From positions 1 to 37,505 of the forward strand of contig JAGXRQ010000052.1 of the NCBI GenBank assembly GCA_018335675.1: a stretch of DNA of 37,505 nt. Reading direction: 5' to 3'. Origin of the DNA: Bacteroidota bacterium (lineage in GTDB: Bacteria; Bacteroidota; Bacteroidia; Bacteroidales; UBA7960). Positions 13,082 through 37,279 of this stretch are shown one piece after another (position 1 is the first letter of the stretch; every line of letters starts with the position of its first letter). The translations under genes and the position numbers were made by a program. The notes beneath the pieces were generated by a model. It had not been told where the DNA came from. It saw only the letters and a list, made by a program, of their open reading frames with translations, and searched no databases.

Positions 13082-13160
13082 ATTATTATCATTTGTAAGT
13101 TCTTGTAAATCAAAAGCTAATATGTAATCATATTATTCTCTTCTCTTCTCTTTCCTTATA

Positions 13161-13250
13161 CCCTATACCCTATACCCTATACCCTATACCCTATACCCTA
13201 TACCCTATACCCTATACCCTATACCCTATACCCTTATACCCTATCCCCTA
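13161..13250. repeat. (CCCTATA)n heptamer tandem array
   Basis: Ten perfect consecutive CCCTATA units run from 13161 to 13230. Three degenerate units follow up to 13250: one 8-bp unit with an extra T, one ending in C, and one partial. On the minus strand the array reads TATAGGG repeatedly and starts at the stop codon TAG of the MacB-like permease (13248-13250). The rest of this intergenic gap (13082-13160) is AT- and pyrimidine-rich with no recognised element. The perfect units suggest recent or ongoing copy-number change. Confidence 0.97.
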
Positions 13251-14498
13251 ATTATTAGCCCTTATCGCCTCCACCGGATCTAAATTTGCGGCAGAATACG
13301 CCGGCAAAAATCCCGATACTATTCCTATAATAGCAGAAACATTTAATCCGAGTAAAATGTTTGACCATGTTAAAACAAAACTAAGGTCGAATGCACTGGA
13401 GATTATCCAGGTAATTAAGAAAACAATTATAAGTCCTAATGCACCACCAATTATACTTAGTAAAACAGATTCAGCAAGAAATTGTATAAGAATAAAAATT
13501 TTCTTAGCACCCAAAGCTTTTTGTAAGCCAATTATAGAAGTTCTTTCTTTCACAGAAACGAACATAATATTGGCTATTCCAAACCCACCAACCAAAATTG
13601 AGAACCCACCAATAATCCAACCTGCTAATGTTAATATTTTAAAAAGTCCGTCAAATCCACTGGTTAGAAGGCTAACTTCATTAAGGGCAAAGTTATCATC
13701 TGCAGCAGGTTTAATTTTCCTAACAGATCTCATTATTCCGTTAAGTTCGCTTTTCATCTGATCAGTCGAAACTCCCTCTTTTCCTTTAACCATTATGTAT
13801 GGATTGTTTCTTTCATTATTAACATCAACAAAAGAGGCAAGATAGCTCACAGGCACAAGGGCTAGTTTGTCGTTGGAGTCTCCCATCATGTTGGTGCCTT
13901 CTTTTTCAAAAACACCAATTATTTCAGCCCTGCGACCAAAGAACTTTATGTATTTACCAATTGGGTCTGTGCCTTGAAATAAGTTCTCTGCAATGTCATT
14001 ACCTATAACCACCACATTTCTGCCTCCTGCAAATTCAACAGGAGAAATAAAGCGGCCTTTCTGAAGTTTAAAAGATCTGACCTTTTCATAGTCACTGGAT
14101 ACACCTAGAATATTTGTATTTGCAATATTAGCATTTTGATATTCAATAGTTCTTGTAACAGTAGAGAAGAAAACAGCTGCTTCGGCAATTGTTGCCCTTC
14201 TCATAATTTCATCAACTTCTTGGAATTTAGGAACAGGTCTGTTTAAATATGTCCACCATGGATAATCTCCACCAAAAGCCCATGACCATTTCTGAACAAA
14301 AACAATATTATCGCCCAATGAAGCAATGCTAGAACGAATCTGCCTTTCCATTGAATCTACAACAGAAAAAACAGTTATAATTGCAAATATCCCAATTGTA
14401 ATACCTAAGAGAGTTAATATAGTTCTAAGCTTATTTGCAACTATTGCGGTAAAGGCAAAAATTACACTTTCTTTGAGCAGCTTAATAAAAAGAATCAT
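13248..14498 (-). CDS. MacB/FtsX-type ABC transporter permease
   Basis: A 416-residue inner-membrane subunit. It has one N-terminal transmembrane helix (about 20-45), a large periplasmic MacB-PCD domain (about 46-270, with FxxxDPIGKYIKF and GRFISPVEF elements) and three C-terminal helices forming the FtsX domain (about 285-405, ending in GFLPAYSAANLDPVEAIRAN). That ending is characteristic of MacB-type permeases, which act as mechanotransmitters in efflux or lipoprotein-type systems. The usual partner ATPase is not fused or encoded immediately next to it; the nearest is the MlaF-like ATPase, 43 bp upstream on the same strand. The stop codon forms the edge of the 7-bp tandem array. Confidence 0.92.
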   Translation of the reverse strand: MILFIKLLKESVIFAFTAIVANKLRTILTLLGITIGIFAIITVFSVVDSMERQIRSSIASLGDNIVFVQKWSWAFGGDYPWWTYLNRPVPKFQEVDEIMRRATIAEAAVFFSTVTRTIEYQNANIANTNILGVSSDYEKVRSFKLQKGRFISPVEFAGGRNVVVIGNDIAENLFQGTDPIGKYIKFFGRRAEIIGVFEKEGTNMMGDSNDKLALVPVSYLASFVDVNNERNNPYIMVKGKEGVSTDQMKSELNGIMRSVRKIKPAADDNFALNEVSLLTSGFDGLFKILTLAGWIIGGFSILVGGFGIANIMFVSVKERTSIIGLQKALGAKKIFILIQFLAESVLLSIIGGALGLIIVFLITWIISSAFDLSFVLTWSNILLGLNVSAIIGIVSGFLPAYSAANLDPVEAIRANN

Positions 14499-17070: not shown

Positions 17071-18162
17071 ATGGATAAAAATAATGTTGTAGTTATTATG
17101 GCTGGCGGCGCCGGAGAAAGATTCTGGCCAATGAGTCGCGATGCCAAACCCAAACAATTTATCGACATCCTTGGAACAGGCAAAAGCCTAATCAGGCAAA
17201 CATACGAGAGATTTCTTAAGCTATGCCCGCCGGAAAACATTTATATTATTACCAATAAGAATTACAAAACTCTTGTTCAGGAGCAAATACCTGAAATTCG
17301 CAGTGAAAACATTTTTTGCGAACCAACAAGAAAAAACACAGCACCTTGCATTGCTTATGCAGCCTATAAGATTTACGCCGCAAATCCTGATGCAAATATG
17401 GTGGTAGCACCATCAGATCATATAATTTTGAAAGAAGATGCATTTTGCGAGATAGTTACAACTGCTCTTAAGGCTTCTGCAGGCAGCAACAAGCTAATCA
17501 CACTCGGCATTACTCCATCTCGACCTGACACGGAATACGGATATATTCAATTTATTCAGGATTCTATTAATAAGGAAGATAAAAGAATGAAGAAGGTGAA
17601 AACATTTACCGAAAAGCCAAATAAAGAATTAGCTGAATCATTTATTCAAAGCGGTGATTTCCTTTGGAATAGCGGAATATTTGTATGGTCGGCCAAAACA
17701 ATAATTAATGCTTTTGAAAAGCATCAACCTGAACTAAACTTTGTTTTTAAAGAAGCTATACCTCATTATAATACAAATAGTGAACTGGATTATATGAAAA
17801 CGGCCTATGAAGCTTGCAAAAGTATTTCTATTGATTATGCAATAATGGAAAAAGCTGAAAATGTTTTTGTATTTATCAGCGATCTTGGATGGTCTGACCT
17901 TGGCTCTTGGAGAGCTCTTTTTGAGTATAGGCCCAAAGATTCTACAAACAATGCAATTTGCGGAAATAACATTTTAGTTTATGATTCAAAAAATTGCATT
18001 ATTACAATGCCTAAAGATAAAATGGTTTTGATACAAGGCTTGGATGACTATATTGTTGCAGAATCTGATAATGTTTTAATGATTTGCAAAAAATCACAGG
18101 AAGGCCAAATTAGAAAATTTGTAAATGACATAAAAATTAATACTGGCGAAAAGTATATTTGA
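17071..18162 (+). CDS. manC: Mannose-1-phosphate guanylyltransferase
   Basis: Makes GDP-mannose from mannose-1-phosphate and GTP for polysaccharide and glycan synthesis. The 363 residues cover the nucleotidyltransferase domain, with the signature MAGGAGERFWPMSR followed by KPKQF, the APSDH motif, FTEKPN, and SGDFLWNSGIFVWS in the substrate region. It lacks the C-terminal phosphomannose isomerase cupin found in bifunctional ManC/AlgA enzymes, as is usual for the short form. The ATG lies 17 bp after the SprT-like stop, and the gene is followed after 26 bp by the S46 peptidase; this spacing supports an operon. Confidence 0.93.
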   Translation: MDKNNVVVIMAGGAGERFWPMSRDAKPKQFIDILGTGKSLIRQTYERFLKLCPPENIYIITNKNYKTLVQEQIPEIRSENIFCEPTRKNTAPCIAYAAYKIYAANPDANMVVAPSDHIILKEDAFCEIVTTALKASAGSNKLITLGITPSRPDTEYGYIQFIQDSINKEDKRMKKVKTFTEKPNKELAESFIQSGDFLWNSGIFVWSAKTIINAFEKHQPELNFVFKEAIPHYNTNSELDYMKTAYEACKSISIDYAIMEKAENVFVFISDLGWSDLGSWRALFEYRPKDSTNNAICGNNILVYDSKNCIITMPKDKMVLIQGLDDYIVAESDNVLMICKKSQEGQIRKFVNDIKINTGEKYI

Positions 18163-18188
18163 TAAGTTTTACTAACACTCTAAATTTT

Positions 18189-20351
18189 ATGAAAATGATA
18201 AAGAAAATTCTACTAAGTTTTGTTGTTGCTTTTGTGATGCTAATGCCGGCATCTAAAGCCGATGAGGGCATGTGGCCTCCTTTCCTTATCCCTAAAATGC
18301 TCTTTAATGAGATGTCGGATATGGGGTTGAATATTACACCCGAGCAAATGTTTAGTTTTGCTGAAACATCTCTCAAAGACGCTATAGTTAGCTTTGGTGG
18401 GTTTTGTACAGGTGAAATTATATCAGACAAGGGCCTAATACTCACAAACCATCATTGTGGTTATGGACAAATTCAGTCGCATTCTTCTCTTGAAAATGAT
18501 TATCTTAATAATGGTTTCTGGGCAATGAGCCTCGAAGAAGAATTGCCAAATCCAGGTTTATATGTGAGGTTTCTTGTTAATGTTGAAGATGTTACTGCTA
18601 AGATTCTTGACGGCATTAAATCTAATATCACTGAAGACAAAAGGGATTCTATTATTAATGCACGTTCCAGAGAATTGACCGCTAAAGCTATTGAGGGAAC
18701 TCACTATAGAGCCAACGTCAGGTCTTTGTATGCCGGCAATTTCTATTATTTATTTCTATATGAAGACTATACAGATGTAAGGCTTGTTGGAACTCCACCC
18801 AATTCTATAGGTAAATTCGGAGGCGACACTGACAACTGGATGTGGCCTCGTCATACAGGCGACTTTGCTCTTTTCAGAGTCTATACAGGCCCTGATGGAA
18901 AACCAGCCGATTATGCTAAAGAAAACATTCCACTTAAGCCTAAACATTTTCTTCCGGTTTCTTTAAAAGGAGTTAAAGAGGATGATTTTGCTATGATATT
19001 CGGATATCCTGGTAGAACAGAAAGATATCTTACATCTTATGGTATAGAATACAATCTTGAAATGATGTATCCTATAAGAATTGATATTCGCAGAAAGAAG
19101 CTTGACATTATGGAAGAAGCTATGCTGAAGAGCGATAAAGTTAGAATTCAATATGCTTCTAAGCATGCCAGAGTTGCTAATTTCTGGAAAAATTTCATCG
19201 GCATGAGTCAGGCTCTTAAAAAGCACAAGGTTGCTGATAAAAAAAGAGAATTGGAGCGTGAGTTTATAGCTTGGGTTAATAAGGATAAAAAGAGAAAAAC
19301 GGAATACGGCTCTACTATGAAATTATTTGAAGAATCATACGCCGGTGAAAGAAAGGCTCAATCATTTTTATTTATACATTCTGAAGCTTTATCTTCAGGC
19401 CCTGAATTATATCGCCTAATGCAAATGGGTGAGAGGTTTTTGACTTCTTTAGAAGAAAACTCAGATTCTCCCGAAAGAATTGAAATGCACGCCCAAAGGC
19501 TGAAAGCTGGTGCAGAAAGAATATATGAAAATCTTGATCTTGATGTTGATCGAAAGCTTTGGGCTGCCATGATGGAAATGTATTATGAAAACGTTGCTCC
19601 TCAACTAATACCTGAGATATTTAAAGATATTGTAAGAGAATTCAACAACGATTTTAATAAGTTTGCTGATTATGTCTATGCAAATTCCGTGTTTGCAGAT
19701 ATCAATAAGCTTAATGCATTTATTGAGAATCCAGATGCTGAGGCCATTAGAAAAGACTGGGCATACAAGGTTGTTGTGGCAACTTCCGAAAAAGTTGATG
19801 AGGTTGCGGAATCTTTAGAGCAATATCAGGTTATGCGCTCTAAAGCTGAAAGGCTTTTCTTAAAAGGATTAATGGAAATGAAGCCTGATATGAATTTCTA
19901 TCCGGATGCTAATTCAACAATGAGATTTACATACGGGTCTGTTGGAGGATATTATCCTGCAGATGCAGTTTATTATCACTACCTAACTACTATTGAAGGT
20001 ATAATGGAAAAGGAAGACCCAACGCATCATGAGTTTGTTGTTCCTGCTAAGTTGAAAGAGCTATTCGAGAAAAAAGATTATGGCGATTATGCTGAAAATG
20101 GTGTTTTATATGTAAACTTTATTTCTAATAACGATATTACAGGTGGTAATTCTGGAAGTCCGGTTATTAATGGCGATGGACATTTAATTGGTTTGGCTTT
20201 TGACGGAAACTGGGAAGCAATGAGCGGCGATATTTTATTTGAACCGGCCGTTCAACGCACTATTAATGTTGACGCAAGATACATTTTGTTCATAATTGAC
20301 AAATTTGCCGGTGCTGGATATCTGCTTGATGAAATGAAGATTGTTAGATAA
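18189..20351 (+). CDS. S46-family dipeptidyl-peptidase, DPP7 type
   Basis: A periplasmic serine exopeptidase that removes N-terminal dipeptides from oligopeptides, feeding peptide catabolism. I chose the start MKMIKK, which gives a clean signal peptide (720 residues); a TTG 30 bp upstream is possible but adds a non-signal extension. From this start the triad is His89 (TNHHCGYG), Asp225 (RHTGDFA) and Ser655 (GGNSGSPV), with the GGDTDNWMWP motif between. The specificity residue is Gly673 in FDGNWE, where DPP11 enzymes carry Arg. Glycine there is the DPP7 pattern, which prefers hydrophobic residues at P1 rather than Asp/Glu. Length is as expected (about 700-730). It is the last gene of the four-gene cluster, and a strong terminator follows. 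Confidence 0.95.
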   Translation: MKMIKKILLSFVVAFVMLMPASKADEGMWPPFLIPKMLFNEMSDMGLNITPEQMFSFAETSLKDAIVSFGGFCTGEIISDKGLILTNHHCGYGQIQSHSSLENDYLNNGFWAMSLEEELPNPGLYVRFLVNVEDVTAKILDGIKSNITEDKRDSIINARSRELTAKAIEGTHYRANVRSLYAGNFYYLFLYEDYTDVRLVGTPPNSIGKFGGDTDNWMWPRHTGDFALFRVYTGPDGKPADYAKENIPLKPKHFLPVSLKGVKEDDFAMIFGYPGRTERYLTSYGIEYNLEMMYPIRIDIRRKKLDIMEEAMLKSDKVRIQYASKHARVANFWKNFIGMSQALKKHKVADKKRELEREFIAWVNKDKKRKTEYGSTMKLFEESYAGERKAQSFLFIHSEALSSGPELYRLMQMGERFLTSLEENSDSPERIEMHAQRLKAGAERIYENLDLDVDRKLWAAMMEMYYENVAPQLIPEIFKDIVREFNNDFNKFADYVYANSVFADINKLNAFIENPDAEAIRKDWAYKVVVATSEKVDEVAESLEQYQVMRSKAERLFLKGLMEMKPDMNFYPDANSTMRFTYGSVGGYYPADAVYYHYLTTIEGIMEKEDPTHHEFVVPAKLKELFEKKDYGDYAENGVLYVNFISNNDITGGNSGSPVINGDGHLIGLAFDGNWEAMSGDILFEPAVQRTINVDARYILFIIDKFAGAGYLLDEMKIVR

Positions 20352-20413
20352 GTCGAAAGTCGTTAGTCGAAAGTCGAAAGTTGGCAGTCAAAAGTCGGCA
20401 GTCTTAAGTTGCT
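20351..20413 (+). repeat. Degenerate AGTCNNN heptamer array
   Basis: Nine consecutive in-phase 7-bp units start at the last base of the S46 stop codon: AGTCGAA, AGTCGTT, AGTCGAA, AGTCGAA, AGTTGGC, AGTCAAA, AGTCGGC, AGTCTTA, AGTTGCT. The last units form the left arm of the following terminator. On the other strand the unit reads GACTTTC, almost the same as the GACTTCC array at 27901-27933. Confidence 0.88.
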
Positions 20414-25997: not shown

Positions 25998-27059
25998 TTA
26001 TCCATTCAATGTTTTAACAGCAGATGCTTTAAAAGTAATCCAAAGCTCTTTCCCTTTTTCAATATTCATTTTTTGAAATGATTCCTGACTTATTACAACA
26101 GAAAAATCGACTCCTGTCTCAATAATCACTTCCATGCCAAATCCCATCTGATAAAACTCCTTTACAACTCCTTTAAATCTGTTTAAAGCTGAAGTTTCCA
26201 GCATAGCTTCAGATAGAATAATATCTTGTTCAGGAACAACTATAAAACCTTTGTGATAATCTATTTTTTCATTTAGCAAAACAGCAATTTCATTATTAAT
26301 TCTTGCTATATTATGATTTTGAGAATTAACTCCTGACTCAAACGTGCATTTGAACAGGTTCTTATATCCTCTAAAACGTGCAACAAATTCATTAACAGGG
26401 TGTCTGAAAACATCATCCGGACAACCTGTTTGTATTAATACACCATTCTCGATTAATGCCACTTTATTACTTAATGTTGCAGCTTCGGTATAATCATGGG
26501 TAACGTGAATAATTGTTTTGCCGCTGAGATTTATTTTTTTTAGCAACTGCCTTAATTCGCTTTTTAATTTAACATCTAGGTTAGACAAAGGCTCATCAAG
26601 AAGCAAAACCTCAGGGTTGGAGGCCAAAGTTCTTGCAAGGGCCACCCTTTGTGCCTCTCCTCCCGATAAGCTTTTGGGATATCTTTCTAGTAAATGAGAT
26701 ATCTCCATATGTCCGGCAAGCTTTTCTAATGTTTTGGATTTTTCCTGCTTGCTGAATTTTTTGTTTTTTAATGGATATAAAATATTGTCTGCAACAGTAA
26801 GATGAGGAAACAAGCACAAATCCTGATAAACTAGTCCAATTCGCCTGCCCTGAATATTTTTATTTGTAATATCCTGGTTGTTGAGTAATATTTTTCCGGA
26901 ATCCGGTCGTTGAAGACCTGCAATAATTTCGAGCATTAAAGTTTTACCTGCTCCCGACATTCCTAAGACAGTAAAGTAATCCCCTTTTTCTACCTTTAGG
27001 GATATATTTTTCAGGGAGAAGCCCGGAAAGCTGACAGAAATGTTGTTAAGCTCAAGCAT
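25998..27059 (-). CDS. Molybdate/tungstate-type ABC transporter ATP-binding protein
   Basis: A 353-residue importer ATPase. Walker A is GMSGAGKT (residues 33-40), the Q-loop lies in GLVYQDLCLFPHLTV, the signature is LSGGEAQRVALARTLA, Walker B is VLLLDEPLSNLD, and the switch histidine is in HVTHDYTEA. The C-terminal 120 residues form a regulatory TOBE-like region (about 235-353), as in ModC and WtpC, which can sense the oxyanion. The first eight bases overlap the permease gene end, so the two are coupled. Among importer ATPases (sulfate, iron, oxyanion), the molybdate/tungstate assignment rests mainly on the partner permease. Confidence 0.85.
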   Translation of the reverse strand: MLELNNISVSFPGFSLKNISLKVEKGDYFTVLGMSGAGKTLMLEIIAGLQRPDSGKILLNNQDITNKNIQGRRIGLVYQDLCLFPHLTVADNILYPLKNKKFSKQEKSKTLEKLAGHMEISHLLERYPKSLSGGEAQRVALARTLASNPEVLLLDEPLSNLDVKLKSELRQLLKKINLSGKTIIHVTHDYTEAATLSNKVALIENGVLIQTGCPDDVFRHPVNEFVARFRGYKNLFKCTFESGVNSQNHNIARINNEIAVLLNEKIDYHKGFIVVPEQDIILSEAMLETSALNRFKGVVKEFYQMGFGMEVIIETGVDFSVVISQESFQKMNIEKGKELWITFKASAVKTLNG

Positions 27060-27834
27060 CAGACTTACTATTTGATAAAACTCTCATTACAATAAAAACT
27101 ACAAGACAAACAATTACAAATACAGCTGCAACAGGTCGCGCATAAGCAAGGCCGAAAGAGGTAAATCTTTCCCAGATAAGCACCGGTGTTATCATTGGAT
27201 GATATGCAATAATGATTACGGCTCCAAATTCACTTAAACCTCTTGCCCACATCATGCTAAGACCTGACAAAATATTCTTCTTTGCCATTGGTAGTGAAAT
27301 TGTAAAAAACACTCTCCACGGCGAAGCACCAAGATTAAGGGCTGCTTTTTCCAGTTTTTCGGGCACTGCTGCGAAGCCGTCGCGGGCAGCATTTATAAGA
27401 AAGGGGATACTAACGAATGCCATCGCAACAACAATACCGGCTATTCCGCCAACAAAATTAATCCCAATGCTTTCGCCTGCCTGCCCTACTAAACTTCCTC
27501 TGCTCACAATTCCTAATATTGCAATACCTGCTGCTGAATGAGGTATCACAACTGGAAGATCAATTATGCCATTAACAACACTTTTTAAAGGAAATTTTTT
27601 TCTTGCAAGTATATATGCCAAAGGAATTGATGCAATCCCAAAAATTATTGTTCCAAGAAAAGATGCCCATAGAGTAAGCCTAATGCTGCTCATTACTTCT
27701 GCATCTGCCAAGGTTTCTTTATACTGCGGAAGGCTTGTATGAAGAAACATGCCGGCAAGTGGCGCAATAATAAAAAGTAAAATAAGCCCGCTCAAAAGCA
27801 GAAACACAATTTTTATGGAATTCTTATTTGTCAT
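27052..27834 (-). CDS. Molybdate/tungstate ABC transporter permease (WtpB/ModB-like)
   Basis: A 260-residue inner-membrane permease with about six transmembrane helices. Recognisable features are LPVVIPHSAAGIAILG, the EAA loop (EKAALNLGASPWRVFFTISLP) that docks the ATPase, RGLSEFGAVIIIAYHP, and the ending ERFTSFGLAYARPVAAVF, typical of WtpB/ModB permeases. It would form the pore for molybdate or tungstate together with the adjacent ATPase. No periplasmic binding protein (ModA/WtpA) gene precedes it: the next gene upstream is the C69 peptidase, separated by a repeat region. Anion specificity cannot be read from the sequence. Confidence 0.87.
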   Translation of the reverse strand: MTNKNSIKIVFLLLSGLILLFIIAPLAGMFLHTSLPQYKETLADAEVMSSIRLTLWASFLGTIIFGIASIPLAYILARKKFPLKSVVNGIIDLPVVIPHSAAGIAILGIVSRGSLVGQAGESIGINFVGGIAGIVVAMAFVSIPFLINAARDGFAAVPEKLEKAALNLGASPWRVFFTISLPMAKKNILSGLSMMWARGLSEFGAVIIIAYHPMITPVLIWERFTSFGLAYARPVAAVFVIVCLVVFIVMRVLSNSKSDA

Positions 27835-27867
27835 GTTCTATTTTCATCAACAGCTTGTCTCAGCCTT

Positions 27868-27933
27868 CAGTCAACAGTCAACAGTGCACTTTCCTTAGCC
27901 GACTTCCGACTTCCGACTGTCGACTTCCGACTT
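27868..27933. repeat. Heptamer repeat region (CAGTCAA and GACTTCC units)
   Basis: Three units, CAGTCAA, CAGTCAA and CAGTGCA (27868-27888), are followed after 12 bases by five units, GACTTCC, GACTTCC, GACTGTC, GACTTCC and a partial GACTT (27901-27933). On the minus strand the second block starts four bases after the C69 peptidase stop codon and reads AAGTCGG units in the direction of transcription. This matches the AGTCGAA array after the S46 peptidase gene. Confidence 0.88.
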
Positions 27934-27937
27934 AAAC

Positions 27938-33991: not shown

Positions 33992-36900
33992 CTAGTTTAT
34001 TACATTGAGTTTTATTGTTTTTGTTTCATTAGTATTGATATCTCTAACTCTAATGAAATATAATCCTGAAGGAAGCCGGTTTCTGTTTAAAACAATTTTC
34101 TCTCCCGACTTGGCATCCGTTGATATTATTACTACACCCAGTGTATTTAATAGTTGTATTTCGTAACTGCTATTGTTATCATTGTTTATTTCAATAAATG
34201 CCACTGTTGTCATCGGATTTGGATAAATACTTATGGCATTAGCCAAATTATAAGAGTCATTTATTGAATTATCATCATCATCGTCATCATCGTCGTCGTC
34301 ATCATCATCATCATCATCATCGTCTTCTTCATATTTAATGGCAATATGCCAGTCTGCTCCTCCATTATTATTCCAGTTAGAACCACCATAATACAAAACA
34401 AAATCGAGGCTTGAAACAATTTGAGATGAGTTATTAAATGGTCCTATGTTTACAAACCAATAATCTCCGCTATTTTGGAAAGGAGTTTGAACAGCCGGTC
34501 CGGTGCCGGCATGTAAGTTGCTGCCTTGAGGCCAATATGCCTCAATTGGCTGTTGCCAGCCATTAACTCCCCAATGTAATTTTGAGGTTGCGGTCATATT
34601 TGCATCATTCTTAACAATTATGGTAATCTTATCATTCTGATTTGGCTCAGCAGGATACCAGCTAACGCCATTTGGGAAATCACTTAATACATTAATGCTC
34701 ATTGTGTAAGCTAATTGACTGTATCTGCCTTCGCTGTCTTTTACCCTGAAGGTGAAACTTGTTAATGGGTTGCCTGTTATGCCTACAGGAGGAGTGTATC
34801 TTAGATTAGCTACAACCGGATAATCCTGGCCGGAAGTTATAGGTATGCCATTATATGTGAGGTTTCCTTGAGTAACAGTGCTCTCAATCTTAATTCCTGC
34901 AAAAGTTGCGCCTCCTGTTCCCTGAAAATAAAAATCAGATTCAGAAAAGTCGTAATGCTGATTTACTATAGTTGTAATGCCGGCATTAGCTCCTACAGGG
35001 TTGTCTGAAGGGGAGTTGTTAATTGTTATATGATAGTCATTTCCTCCATTGTTATCCCATTCGCTTCCATTTCTTACAACAAATGCCACAGTATTAACAA
35101 CTTGAGCTGCATTATTGAATGGGCCTATTACAACTTTGAAAACACCATCTCCACTATCAGTAAATTGAGTTTCAACAGCAGGACCTGTGCCATTAAACAA
35201 AGTTGTTCCACTTGGCCAATAGCTTGCATGTGGTGTTTGCCATGATGAGCCTGAATTATTGACGCCCCAGTGAAGATATGTACTTGAATTTGCATACGAC
35301 GCAGTAATAGTTATATATTCATTCAGGTTTGGATTTTGAGGAGACCAGTTTACATTTCCTCCGCCTGATCCACTGCTGTCTCCAACCCAAACATGCTGTA
35401 TCGGCGATTTTGCAACATTTCCGTTATTGTCTCTTGCTTCAACATAATAATTAATCATAACATTTTGCAATCCTGCAATTTCTGCCGAATATTCTTTTGC
35501 TTTGTATGTTGGTAAAGGATTTGTTATAGAAGGAAAAGTTATGCCTGTCATCGGAATTTCTTGCCATTCGCTTACACCGGCTCCTCCTGAGTATGTTCTT
35601 GTTACTACAGAAGTAGCAGTATGAACGCCCTCATCAACAAGGCGATACTTAAGTTTCACGGATTGCAATCCTGAATGGTCGTAAACGTATGTCCATACTT
35701 TAAAATCAGACGACATCACACCAACAGCATCCCATTCAACATCTCCCGGATTATATGGAAATCTTTGCGGGAGATAAATTGATGGTGGGGTAAGGTCAGA
35801 ATAACTTCCACCCAATACATTTGCTGCAGCGGCTACTGCCAAGTTGCATGCTCTTGCAGGGTGAGAGTCCCACATCTCTGTTCCATCCCAATACCAATAG
35901 CAGCTTGTTTGCGCATTCAGATAGTATTTCCATGCATTTACTGTGTGTGCAGATGAAGGATTTACCTGTTGTGCAGTTTGAACAATGTTTTTTGCTGCTG
36001 TGATAATTCCCCAGCTGTTTCGGTCGGGGCTGTAATTTGGAGTACCATTATAATTGCCCGGGTCCCCATTCCATTTTTTAAACTCAGGGTCGCCGGAGTC
36101 GGCACCCACCCAACTTCCATCTTGAACATGAATAATATCATTTGGGTTGGGGGGAAACATTTCCAGGTAATCCTGTATTGTAGTGCAAACAAATCTACTT
36201 GATTGAGACCCCAGCCAGCTTACAAAATTCGAGAAATTTCCTCCGTAATATCCTTCAGAACCTCCACCGTAATTATCTCCGTCGTGGTGCAGTACTATCA
36301 ATATTGGATGATTAGGATCTGTATTATAACTTTCAAGCTGACTCATCACATAGTCATAGTTTAATGCTCCAAATCCGCCTCTGCCGTCTTCATTACCGAG
36401 GTATCTTGATGCAGGCACTGCAATAATTTTTTTAGCAGCGCCGGTTTGAGGATCTATATATTGAACATATTTTGGTTGGTGAGCCCATCTTGCGGAAACA
36501 GGCGCCGGGCACCATAACCCGTTTAAGCTTGTCCAATCGTTTGGGTTTGGATTTAATATGTCTGCCTTATTGGGCCGCTTAACTCCCGTTCCATCTCCAA
36601 CTGGAGCTCCAATAGATGCTCTCTCGAAATTGAAGTTATCTACCAAAGCCCATTCAATTCCTTCATCAACCAATGCGGGTATCATCCTTACAGAAAAGGC
36701 ATTTTCAGGAGGAAATATACCTTTTGAATATGTGTAACTAGGGAAGTTGGTTGCAAATATATTCCTGTGGTCTTGTATTGATTTACGAATATCATAATAA
36801 TCAATCAATCCCATCAATGGGTGGTGATAACCAAAGCCAACCAGGTCGATTCTCGGATTGTTTCTAACAGTTTTTTGTCCGGTTATATAATTCCAGTGAG

Positions 36901-37279
36901 ATTTCCAGTTGTTGAAACTCCCATTGCAGGCATTGGCTGCCGCAATGTTGTTAAGATTTTCAACCAATGACCCCGAAAAACTAACTTGTGCACCAAAATT
37001 TCCAAATCCTGCATTAATACCCATTTGCACAGCATTTTTTGGCCAGTCGGTATAGGGCCCGACTCTCTGATTAAAAACATCATATAAGTTAAACGAATAT
37101 GCACCGCTATTGGCTGTAGTAATAATGCTTTCGTAAGGCTTGTAAATAGGCTGATGCATGTGCCACAAAAAAGCAATGTAAATTTTAGGGTTTTTACTTG
37201 TGTCGGTTGTGTCGGTGCTTGCTTTAGAAACAATAGGCAATAATAGCGCAACCATTAAGGTTAGCAGTACTTTTTTCAT
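33992..37279 (-). CDS. Secreted GH57-family glycoside hydrolase with two CBM-like modules, poly-Asp and T9SS domain
   Basis: A 1095-residue exported enzyme, probably acting on alpha-glucans. After the signal peptide (about 1-20), the GH57 domain (about 30-420) shows the WHMHQP motif (near residue 39), VGFGYHHPLMG, the FPPENAFS region with the likely nucleophile glutamate (near 189), and the VLHHDGDNYGGG loop. Two homologous beta modules follow (about 641-750 and 869-980), each with LHWGVN, YWP-G, a GPFNN loop and a closing WNNNGG- or WDNNGG-type motif, resembling starch-binding CBM25/26. A cadherin-like segment lies between them. Then come 18 aspartates (986-1003) and a T9SS type A domain (about 1015-1095, IYPNP). 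The start ATG lies 27 bp from an IS30 transposase stop, so its promoter region has probably been replaced. The CBM family is a tentative call. Confidence 0.87.
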   Translation of the reverse strand: MKKVLLTLMVALLLPIVSKASTDTTDTSKNPKIYIAFLWHMHQPIYKPYESIITTANSGAYSFNLYDVFNQRVGPYTDWPKNAVQMGINAGFGNFGAQVSFSGSLVENLNNIAAANACNGSFNNWKSHWNYITGQKTVRNNPRIDLVGFGYHHPLMGLIDYYDIRKSIQDHRNIFATNFPSYTYSKGIFPPENAFSVRMIPALVDEGIEWALVDNFNFERASIGAPVGDGTGVKRPNKADILNPNPNDWTSLNGLWCPAPVSARWAHQPKYVQYIDPQTGAAKKIIAVPASRYLGNEDGRGGFGALNYDYVMSQLESYNTDPNHPILIVLHHDGDNYGGGSEGYYGGNFSNFVSWLGSQSSRFVCTTIQDYLEMFPPNPNDIIHVQDGSWVGADSGDPEFKKWNGDPGNYNGTPNYSPDRNSWGIITAAKNIVQTAQQVNPSSAHTVNAWKYYLNAQTSCYWYWDGTEMWDSHPARACNLAVAAAANVLGGSYSDLTPPSIYLPQRFPYNPGDVEWDAVGVMSSDFKVWTYVYDHSGLQSVKLKYRLVDEGVHTATSVVTRTYSGGAGVSEWQEIPMTGITFPSITNPLPTYKAKEYSAEIAGLQNVMINYYVEARDNNGNVAKSPIQHVWVGDSSGSGGGNVNWSPQNPNLNEYITITASYANSSTYLHWGVNNSGSSWQTPHASYWPSGTTLFNGTGPAVETQFTDSGDGVFKVVIGPFNNAAQVVNTVAFVVRNGSEWDNNGGNDYHITINNSPSDNPVGANAGITTIVNQHYDFSESDFYFQGTGGATFAGIKIESTVTQGNLTYNGIPITSGQDYPVVANLRYTPPVGITGNPLTSFTFRVKDSEGRYSQLAYTMSINVLSDFPNGVSWYPAEPNQNDKITIIVKNDANMTATSKLHWGVNGWQQPIEAYWPQGSNLHAGTGPAVQTPFQNSGDYWFVNIGPFNNSSQIVSSLDFVLYYGGSNWNNNGGADWHIAIKYEEDDDDDDDDDDDDDDDDDDNSINDSYNLANAISIYPNPMTTVAFIEINNDNNSSYEIQLLNTLGVVIISTDAKSGEKIVLNRNRLPSGLYFIRVRDINTNETKTIKLNVIN
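34271..34324 (-). repeat. In-frame GAT/GAC trinucleotide repeat encoding 18 Asp
   Basis: Eighteen consecutive Asp codons (GAT with interspersed GAC) join the second CBM-like module to the sorting domain of the GH57 protein. The mixed codons make slippage less likely than in a pure repeat, but two pure GAT runs of four and seven codons remain. Confidence 0.97.

Follow-up and report, generated by a model that had tools for sequence, protein, structure and literature searches.

Polar heptamer arrays with an AGTC core lie beside translation stops in the spacers of a Bacteroidota genome

A tandem repeat with a period of 7 nt begins almost immediately after the stop codon of a peptidase gene in the genome of a Bacteroidota bacterium (GenBank assembly GCA_018335675.1), and the locus raises the question of why a repeat of this kind should start where translation ends and whether it is one of many. 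The window analysed here is the whole stretch of 37,505 nt at positions 1 to 37,505 of contig JAGXRQ010000052.1. An initial annotation had singled out the array behind this gene, which encodes a C69-family peptidase, and another behind an S46-family peptidase gene as two copies of a dispersed element with matching orientation relative to transcription, acting at mRNA 3' ends. The features of the C69 locus are as follows.

27052..27834, minus strand: ABC-type permease gene (BPD_transp_1), the next gene downstream of C69 (ORF and Pfam)
27855..27937, minus strand: predicted imperfect RNA hairpin formed from both arrays of the locus (-30.5 kcal/mol, z -4.0)
27868..27885, plus strand: inverted partner block of AGTCAAC units, CAGTCAACAGTCAACAGT, facing the main array and giving two exact GACT units downstream of it
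27898..27932, minus strand: main AGTCNNN array of five units, its first AGTC-register unit starting 5 nt past the C69 stop codon
27938..29668, minus strand: C69-family peptidase gene with the array at its 3' end (ORF and Pfam PF03577, E 1.4e-68)

On the minus strand the C69 gene ends in TAG (27940-27938), followed by GTTT and then by AAGTCGGAAGTCGACAGTCGGAAGTCGGAAGTCGGC, just as had been annotated for an AAGTCGG array four bases past the stop; in the AGTC register the units read AGTCGGA, AGTCGAC, AGTCGGA, AGTCGGA and AGTCGGC. The second block lies 12 nt from the main array and reads ACTGTTGACTGTTGACTG on the minus strand and CAGTCAACAGTCAACAGT on the plus strand. It had been taken for a different unit, CAGTCAA, and the locus for one of mixed unit types. 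Since CAGTCAA is a rotation of AGTCAAC and carries the AGTC core on the opposite strand, the two blocks are instead an inverted pair of a single AGTC family. A known structured RNA family was rejected as their identity, there being no Rfam match at gathering score in the window. The S46 locus and a further heptamer array of the window comprise these features.

13157..13250, minus strand: TATAGGG (sense) heptamer array of thirteen TATACCC copies, adjoining the stop of the permease gene at 13248-14498
18159..20351, plus strand: S46-family peptidase gene (ORF and Pfam PF10459, E 2.8e-246)
20351..20406, plus strand: S46-locus array of eight units, one with a core mismatch, its first A in common with the S46 stop TAA
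20391..20430, plus strand: intrinsic-terminator-like hairpin of 40 nt (-22.4 kcal/mol), its 5' arm formed by the last S46 array units and followed by a T-rich tail

The S46 array does run from its stop, as annotated, and in fact begins inside it. TRF detects both arrays of the window, which also holds ~20 ATC repeats (34271-34332) that encode an aspartate run within a 1095-aa minus-strand ORF (33992-37279).

These two arrays belong to a large population. In the whole genome (3.36 Mb, 150 contigs), exact three-unit AGTCNNN windows, AGTCNNNAGTCNNNAGTC, number 277 (138 forward, 139 reverse), as against 51 for the reversed control pattern, at least some of which probably come from CCTGAGT arrays, since these also match the reversed pattern. 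Two complementary array-start patterns, which miss some arrays, gave 57 matches (49 + 8), and a script run on 52 fetched genome stretches plus the window found 70 arrays with three or more exact units, a number that includes a few single runs split by a degenerate stretch (for example at loci L046 and L065) and that comes from a non-random sample, the stretches having been picked by AGTC patterns. The proposal of a dispersed element class is thus borne out, and the C69 and S46 loci are not a pair but two of many. Judged on these two genes, nothing points beyond coincidence in the fact that both hosts encode peptidases, as had been allowed from the start. The variable triplets of the units draw on 35 different words, the foremost being CTG, CTA, GAA, GGC, GAC, GTA, GAT and GGA, and mismatches in the AGTC core (13 in 423 units) are rare partly by construction, the arrays being defined by exact AGTC. 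Gene calls come from a home-made ORF finder (at least 80 aa, first ATG, GTG or TTG), which places starts roughly and stops more reliably; 67 of the 70 arrays lie outside the called ORFs, and 69 of the 70 are without GGG on the AGTC strand.

The arrays are positioned unevenly between their neighbours. Of the 41 arrays whose 5' side is faced by a stop codon, 34 either overlap that codon or are no more than 20 nt away, where uniform placement in the gaps would give 16.2±2.3; for the 41 whose 3' side is so faced the number is 7 (13.3±2.2 expected), a contrast with a Fisher p of 2.5e-9. The overlap of arrays with stops may be inflated, since G-rich strands carry more stop codons, and tests without overlap were hence made as well; when stop-overlapping and in-ORF arrays are left aside, the figures are 12/18 on the 5' side against 5/36 on the 3' side (p 1.6e-4). 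All such p values are optimistic, because arrays that share a genome or a gap are not independent observations. Between convergent genes, 19 of 24 arrays overlap the stop on their 5' side or come within 20 nt of it, and 6 of 24 do so on their 3' side, and 55 of the 69 arrays that have two neighbours are nearer to the 5' gene. The tabulation of strand that had been proposed turned out otherwise than foreseen, for in gaps between co-directional genes 17 arrays are sense and 17 antisense. The matching orientation suspected from the C69 and S46 loci therefore survives in one part, that arrays start in the sense direction at stops, and fails in the other, that they prefer one orientation; what is non-random is the coupling of position and orientation. 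Because orientation alone is random, the rule is one of position, an array tending to read away from the gene that it abuts. Inverted partners obey a polarity too, as at least two GACT units are found in the same gap downstream of 14 of the 70 arrays and upstream of none (in these downstream stretches eight control tetramers gave 0 to 5 of 70).

The reading that we regard as on balance probable is that these are polar intergenic heptamer repeats that grow by tandem duplication in spacer DNA, that have no obligatory function and a few of which have been recruited into terminators. The arrays would most likely be young tandem expansions in untranslated spacer that only occasionally, as at S46, came to serve as terminators. 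Arrays might arise and grow by tandem duplication, with the 4-nt core as anchor for slippage or template switching; growth would occur in spacer DNA that starts where translation ends, and a growing array would push its 3' flank away from the gene. Since the 35-triplet vocabulary is common to unlinked loci, copying between loci, which would account for it, is suggested in place of purely local growth. Pure local slippage is also weakened by the order of the words, which is not clearly more clustered than in within-array shuffles: identical neighbouring words occur at 104 of 327 junctions against 96.8±6.3, and 147 of 1000 shuffles score as high. A minority of arrays, that at S46 among them, may subsequently have been drawn into intrinsic terminators. 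More speculatively, re-annealing of untranslated nascent RNA to its template might be the reason that, across genomes, it is usually the G-richer strand that leaves the gene.

The history of the arrays can be followed by comparison with relatives. The flank comparison that had been suggested was carried out in part, with the one congener in the set (G395) and with C-terminal fragments of 33 stop-abutting genes as queries; for 11 of the 34 stop-abutting arrays, no orthologue of at least 55% identity was present among the 30 loci fetched (64 matches listed). At none of the remaining 23 gene ends does G395 carry so much as two AGTC or GACT units in tandem close to the stop, and the array-start pattern has no match in G395. 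One of these ends, the orthologue of the L078 gene, carries a different short repeat of GATT type after its stop, GATTTCGGATTTCGGATTGG.... The absence of arrays at matching gene ends suggests that they are lineage-specific gains, or else were lost in the congener. Among the loci of 19 relatives with a C69 orthologue, 0 of the 18 that include the stop region have a two-unit array within 260 nt of the stop (the 19th is cut off by the end of its contig), and 0 of 19 match the permease. The natural C-terminus lies at the homologous place in 12 of the 23 genes compared with G395 (11 by alignment, that of L073 by eye), and in about 7 of 23, as judged by eye, the last codons lie in the array or have been replaced by it. 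Eight genes are followed in both genomes by the same neighbour, likewise oriented; the array-bearing genome has the longer gap in seven of these pairs and a gap of about equal length in one, with the G395 distances running to the alignment start; a ninth pair (L031) was dropped, as the neighbour differs in orientation. Ordinary sequence at gene ends may have been the starting point of at least some arrays: at L040 G395 also has the GAG TCT TAA that forms the first array unit in the genome under study, and at L055 a conserved ending, NLSQ*, is written AGTCAATAG in that genome.

An alternative that we consider unlikely is that the arrays are selected 3'-end elements, that is hairpins or RNA signals that terminate transcripts, and do so bidirectionally where arrays face each other between convergent genes. 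Strong terminator-like hairpins derived from array units are present at S46, L073 and L036, the folds at both the C69 and the S46 locus are more stable than those of all 200 shuffles, and GACT partners are found downstream of 14 of the 70 arrays and upstream of 0. Against this, a hairpin with a T tract makes use of array units at only 6 of the 34 stop-abutting arrays, and inspection of the sequence after the C69-locus hairpin found no T tract. A terminator-like hairpin occurs within 250 nt at 14 of 34 array-bearing gene ends and at 39 of 164 control ends, a marginal difference (p 0.054) that leaves the general action at mRNA 3' ends proposed in the initial annotation unsupported. Between co-directional genes antisense arrays are as frequent as sense ones, and the orthologous ends in the congener do without an array in all 23 cases. 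Termination by Rho was rejected as a general explanation: rut sites are rich in C and poor in G, and on the AGTC strand of the 67 intergenic arrays G exceeds C in 43, about equals it in 10 and falls below it in 14. Between two congeners, G401 and G417 (L115, 2040-2210, and L121), an array region of ~120 nt, which supplies the C-terminal residues of the protein encoded upstream, is 98-100% identical; the surrounding sequence is a mosaic in which other blocks of more than 100 nt, coding ones included, are also near 100% identical and the remaining blocks are ~80% identical. Since the near-identical patches include coding blocks, recent exchange is likelier than conservation for function, and conservation is weakened as functional evidence.

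Rather improbable, in our estimate, is the possibility that the arrays are the ends of a MITE- or REP-like mobile element that inserted beside stops and before promoters, other repeats having later come to lie between facing arrays. With AGTC/GACT runs masked, the 150 nt downstream of arrays are shared across loci in 89 pairs that involve 34 of the 70 arrays, whereas the 150 nt upstream give no pairs (0 of 70), a contrast that is in part expected, as the upstream 150 nt are mostly coding. Four other repeat families have 38 copies in the fetched stretches of this genome and the window; in 28 of these, AGTC units lie upstream or GACT units downstream in the gap, and none shows the reverse order. 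The dinucleotide TA directly precedes 32 of the 70 arrays, the congener offers what might be read as empty sites, and the BrickBuilt element of Porphyromonas gingivalis is described as a MITE with inverted-repeat ends and a tandem array inside (cited passages of PMC4596501). On the other hand, no consistent target-site duplication was seen by eye, and the congener gaps are too diverged for one to be read; Rehm 2015, in the passages cited here, reports generally no association of comparable heptamer repeats with mobile elements (PMC4692102). Four matches to Y1 REP-associated transposases exist in the genome (L143-L146, on contigs C62, C117, C4 and C130 of G000), and none of these loci, of 2-3 kb each, contains the AGTC heptamer motif, for which reason, together with the other palindromes present at three of them, an origin from a RAYT/REP system was rejected. 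The palindromes in question are of GCCCTACGGGCA or GCCCTTTCAGGGC type and, with the Y1 transposases, apparently constitute a separate REP system of this genome. That the arrays reflect chance or base composition is almost certainly wrong, for although AGTC is just four bases and the reversed control has its 51 matches, the 277 exact windows in 3.36 Mb and the strong positional asymmetry stand against it and the stop-placement test refutes it.

The arrays belong to a kind of repeat that is already known. The closest that we found are the GGGNATC and GGGGA(C/T)T heptamers of Xanthomonas and Nostoc, which according to the cited passages of Rehm 2015 (PMC4692102) are dispersed and mostly intergenic and lie closer to the 5' ORF regardless of its orientation, many being no further than 50 nt from a stop (coding strand), at times with overlap, or from a start (non-coding strand). 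The aligned gaps of Xanthomonas contain sense and antisense repeats about equally often, convergent pairs are many and repeats between divergent genes fewer, and in Nostoc inverted pairs are few; the same passages treat the repeats in terms of quadruplex formation and leave their function open (PMC4692102). The AGTC arrays share with them the period of 7, the intergenic dispersal, the placement by 5' gene and stop, and the convergent pairs, and differ from them, as far as those passages go (PMC4692102), in a unit, AGTC followed by a variable triplet, that has no G tracts, and in their absence from the gene ends of a congener. With GGG absent from all arrays but one, the class is a variant of these polar heptamer repeats and not a quadruplex repeat. 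What is new is the placement at stops by repeats that lack G runs; the placement itself is already published for the Xanthomonas and Nostoc heptamers.

Other described repeats are further removed. The TAACTGA direct repeats of Beggiatoaceae, Cyanobacteria and Bacteroidetes lie mostly just upstream of start codons in the main genome studied, and close Cyanothece strains differ slightly, mostly by indels in 7-nt steps (MacGregor 2015, cited passages of PMC4679880). They resemble the AGTC arrays in being intergenic heptamers of sporadic occurrence, found in a few Bacteroidetes and accompanied in some species by other heptamers; the AGTC arrays fall outside that class in both unit and placement, on the description in these passages (PMC4679880). 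BrickBuilt is likewise a dispersed intergenic tandem array of a member of the Bacteroidota, built, as described in part in PMC4596501, of a 23-nt brick with leader and tail and situated 49-591 nt from the nearest genes, whereas the AGTC arrays have a period of 7, lie at stops and show no leader or tail that we recognised. Heptamers are the commonest unit of long simple sequence repeats in most genomes (Mrazek 2007, as cited in PMC4679880 and PMC4692102), a general class for which those citing passages give no placement rule. In open-licence PMC literature, our search for AGTC-type heptamers in Bacteroidota found nothing closer than Rehm 2015 and MacGregor 2015.

Beyond the genome under study, 84 of the 395 genomes sampled from the phylum contain the four-unit pattern, and the start pattern detects arrays in 17 of 59 relatives, that genome included. 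The reversed control is common in many genomes of the phylum, which makes AGTC one core among several; CTGANNN arrays, which match this control, are abundant in many of them (for example G179, G241 and G123) and in some outnumber AGTCNNN arrays. Among the relatives fetched the stop rule is less marked (without overlap, 9/19 against 6/33, p 0.054). G402 (L103-L112) departs from it: of the 11 arrays fetched, 6 read antisense and have an ATG 18-19 nt past their edge, in a common context GACAAA..TAAAC..ATG, like GACAAATTTTAAACATATGAAA, that is unlike the stop-abutting arrays described above. Long facing hairpins are seen at G371 (L124-L127), with arms of AGTCNNN arrays whose triplets are, by eye, largely complementary around a palindromic core, and at G158 C3 (L123) AGTC arrays with very diverse triplets lie, again by eye, inside a higher-order repeat of ~133-146 bp. 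Named GTDB genomes yielded at least 119 AGTC stretches from Bacteroidota, Cyanobacteria, Xanthomonas and others, counts that come from the matches listed (titles for 80) and are no frequencies. AGTCNNN arrays of cyanobacteria are among these listed matches. The cyanobacterial STRR heptamers presumably include the units CCCCAGT, TTGGTCA and CAACAGT, of which, if so, CAACAGT would be a rotation of the AGTCAAC at 27868-27885 and CCCCAGT one of AGTCCCC; a literature search on these unit words returned no match.

In the named set, among the matches listed, the AGTC strand is sense after stops in 32 of 72 cases against 8 of 82 without overlap. Arrays without GGG or CCC, pooled over genomes (the named ones among the matches listed), follow the AGTC-strand rule as well, with 48/94 against 13/128 (p 1.4e-11). 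Since arrays free of G tracts obey the stop rule, quadruplex formation is not needed for the placement and is no general cause of it, and with 69 of 70 arrays lacking GGG it was rejected as a requirement. For strongly C-rich AGTC units the preference seems to be reversed (2/6 against 8/13 with overlap, among the matches listed), a difference that is not significant without overlap (2/6 against 5/10, likewise among the matches listed). A related rule is found for tandem arrays that contain neither AGTC nor GACT: over three pooled sets and all periods tested, the G-richer strand is sense after stops in 26/57 against 4/63 (p 5e-7), a signal that comes mostly from the named set (period 7, 14/30 against 1/34, among the matches listed). 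Heptamers other than AGTC in the genome under study go in the same direction without significance (5/9 against 1/5). In the named set, again among the matches listed, the placement follows purine skew less strongly (54/117 against 27/91 with overlaps counted) and A-T skew not at all. Arrays of the genome under study in which C exceeds G nevertheless keep the AGTC polarity (7/10 against 2/6), and G-richness alone does not, therefore, set it.

Further tandem families occupy the spacers of this genome, and two of them tend in the same direction as the AGTC arrays, on small counts. TATAGGG arrays have a stop on the 5' side in 8 of 11 cases, within 20 nt in 4/8 on that side and in 0/5 on the 3' side, and arrays of a GTGACAG 12-mer lie within 20 nt of a stop in 4/9 on the 5' side and 0/4 on the 3' side; among five GATTGNNNN arrays none lies within 20 nt of a stop. 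Part-fixed families of this kind, GATTGNNNN with a period of 9 and GTGACAG/TTACAGG with one of about 12, occur at L033, L042, L070 and L040, where they are mixed with a palindrome, GCTCCCCCTTTAGGGGG, into spacer mosaics.

These observations bear on a wider proposition, which we hold to be quite unlikely: that it is a general law of bacterial spacer DNA for tandem repeats, of many units and in many phyla, to grow out from the translation stop with the G-richer strand outgoing, promoted by ribosome-free nascent RNA, for example through R-loops. Bacterial heptamer arrays are at present without an accepted cause, and the recurrence of the same rule with G-tract-free units in one Bacteroidota genome and with G-tract-free arrays in others suggests a cause of wider reach than quadruplexes. 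The empty orthologous gene ends of the congener make the gain (or loss) of arrays open to test. If the general law were true, the heptamer class would be the footprint of repeat growth promoted by ribosome-free nascent RNA.
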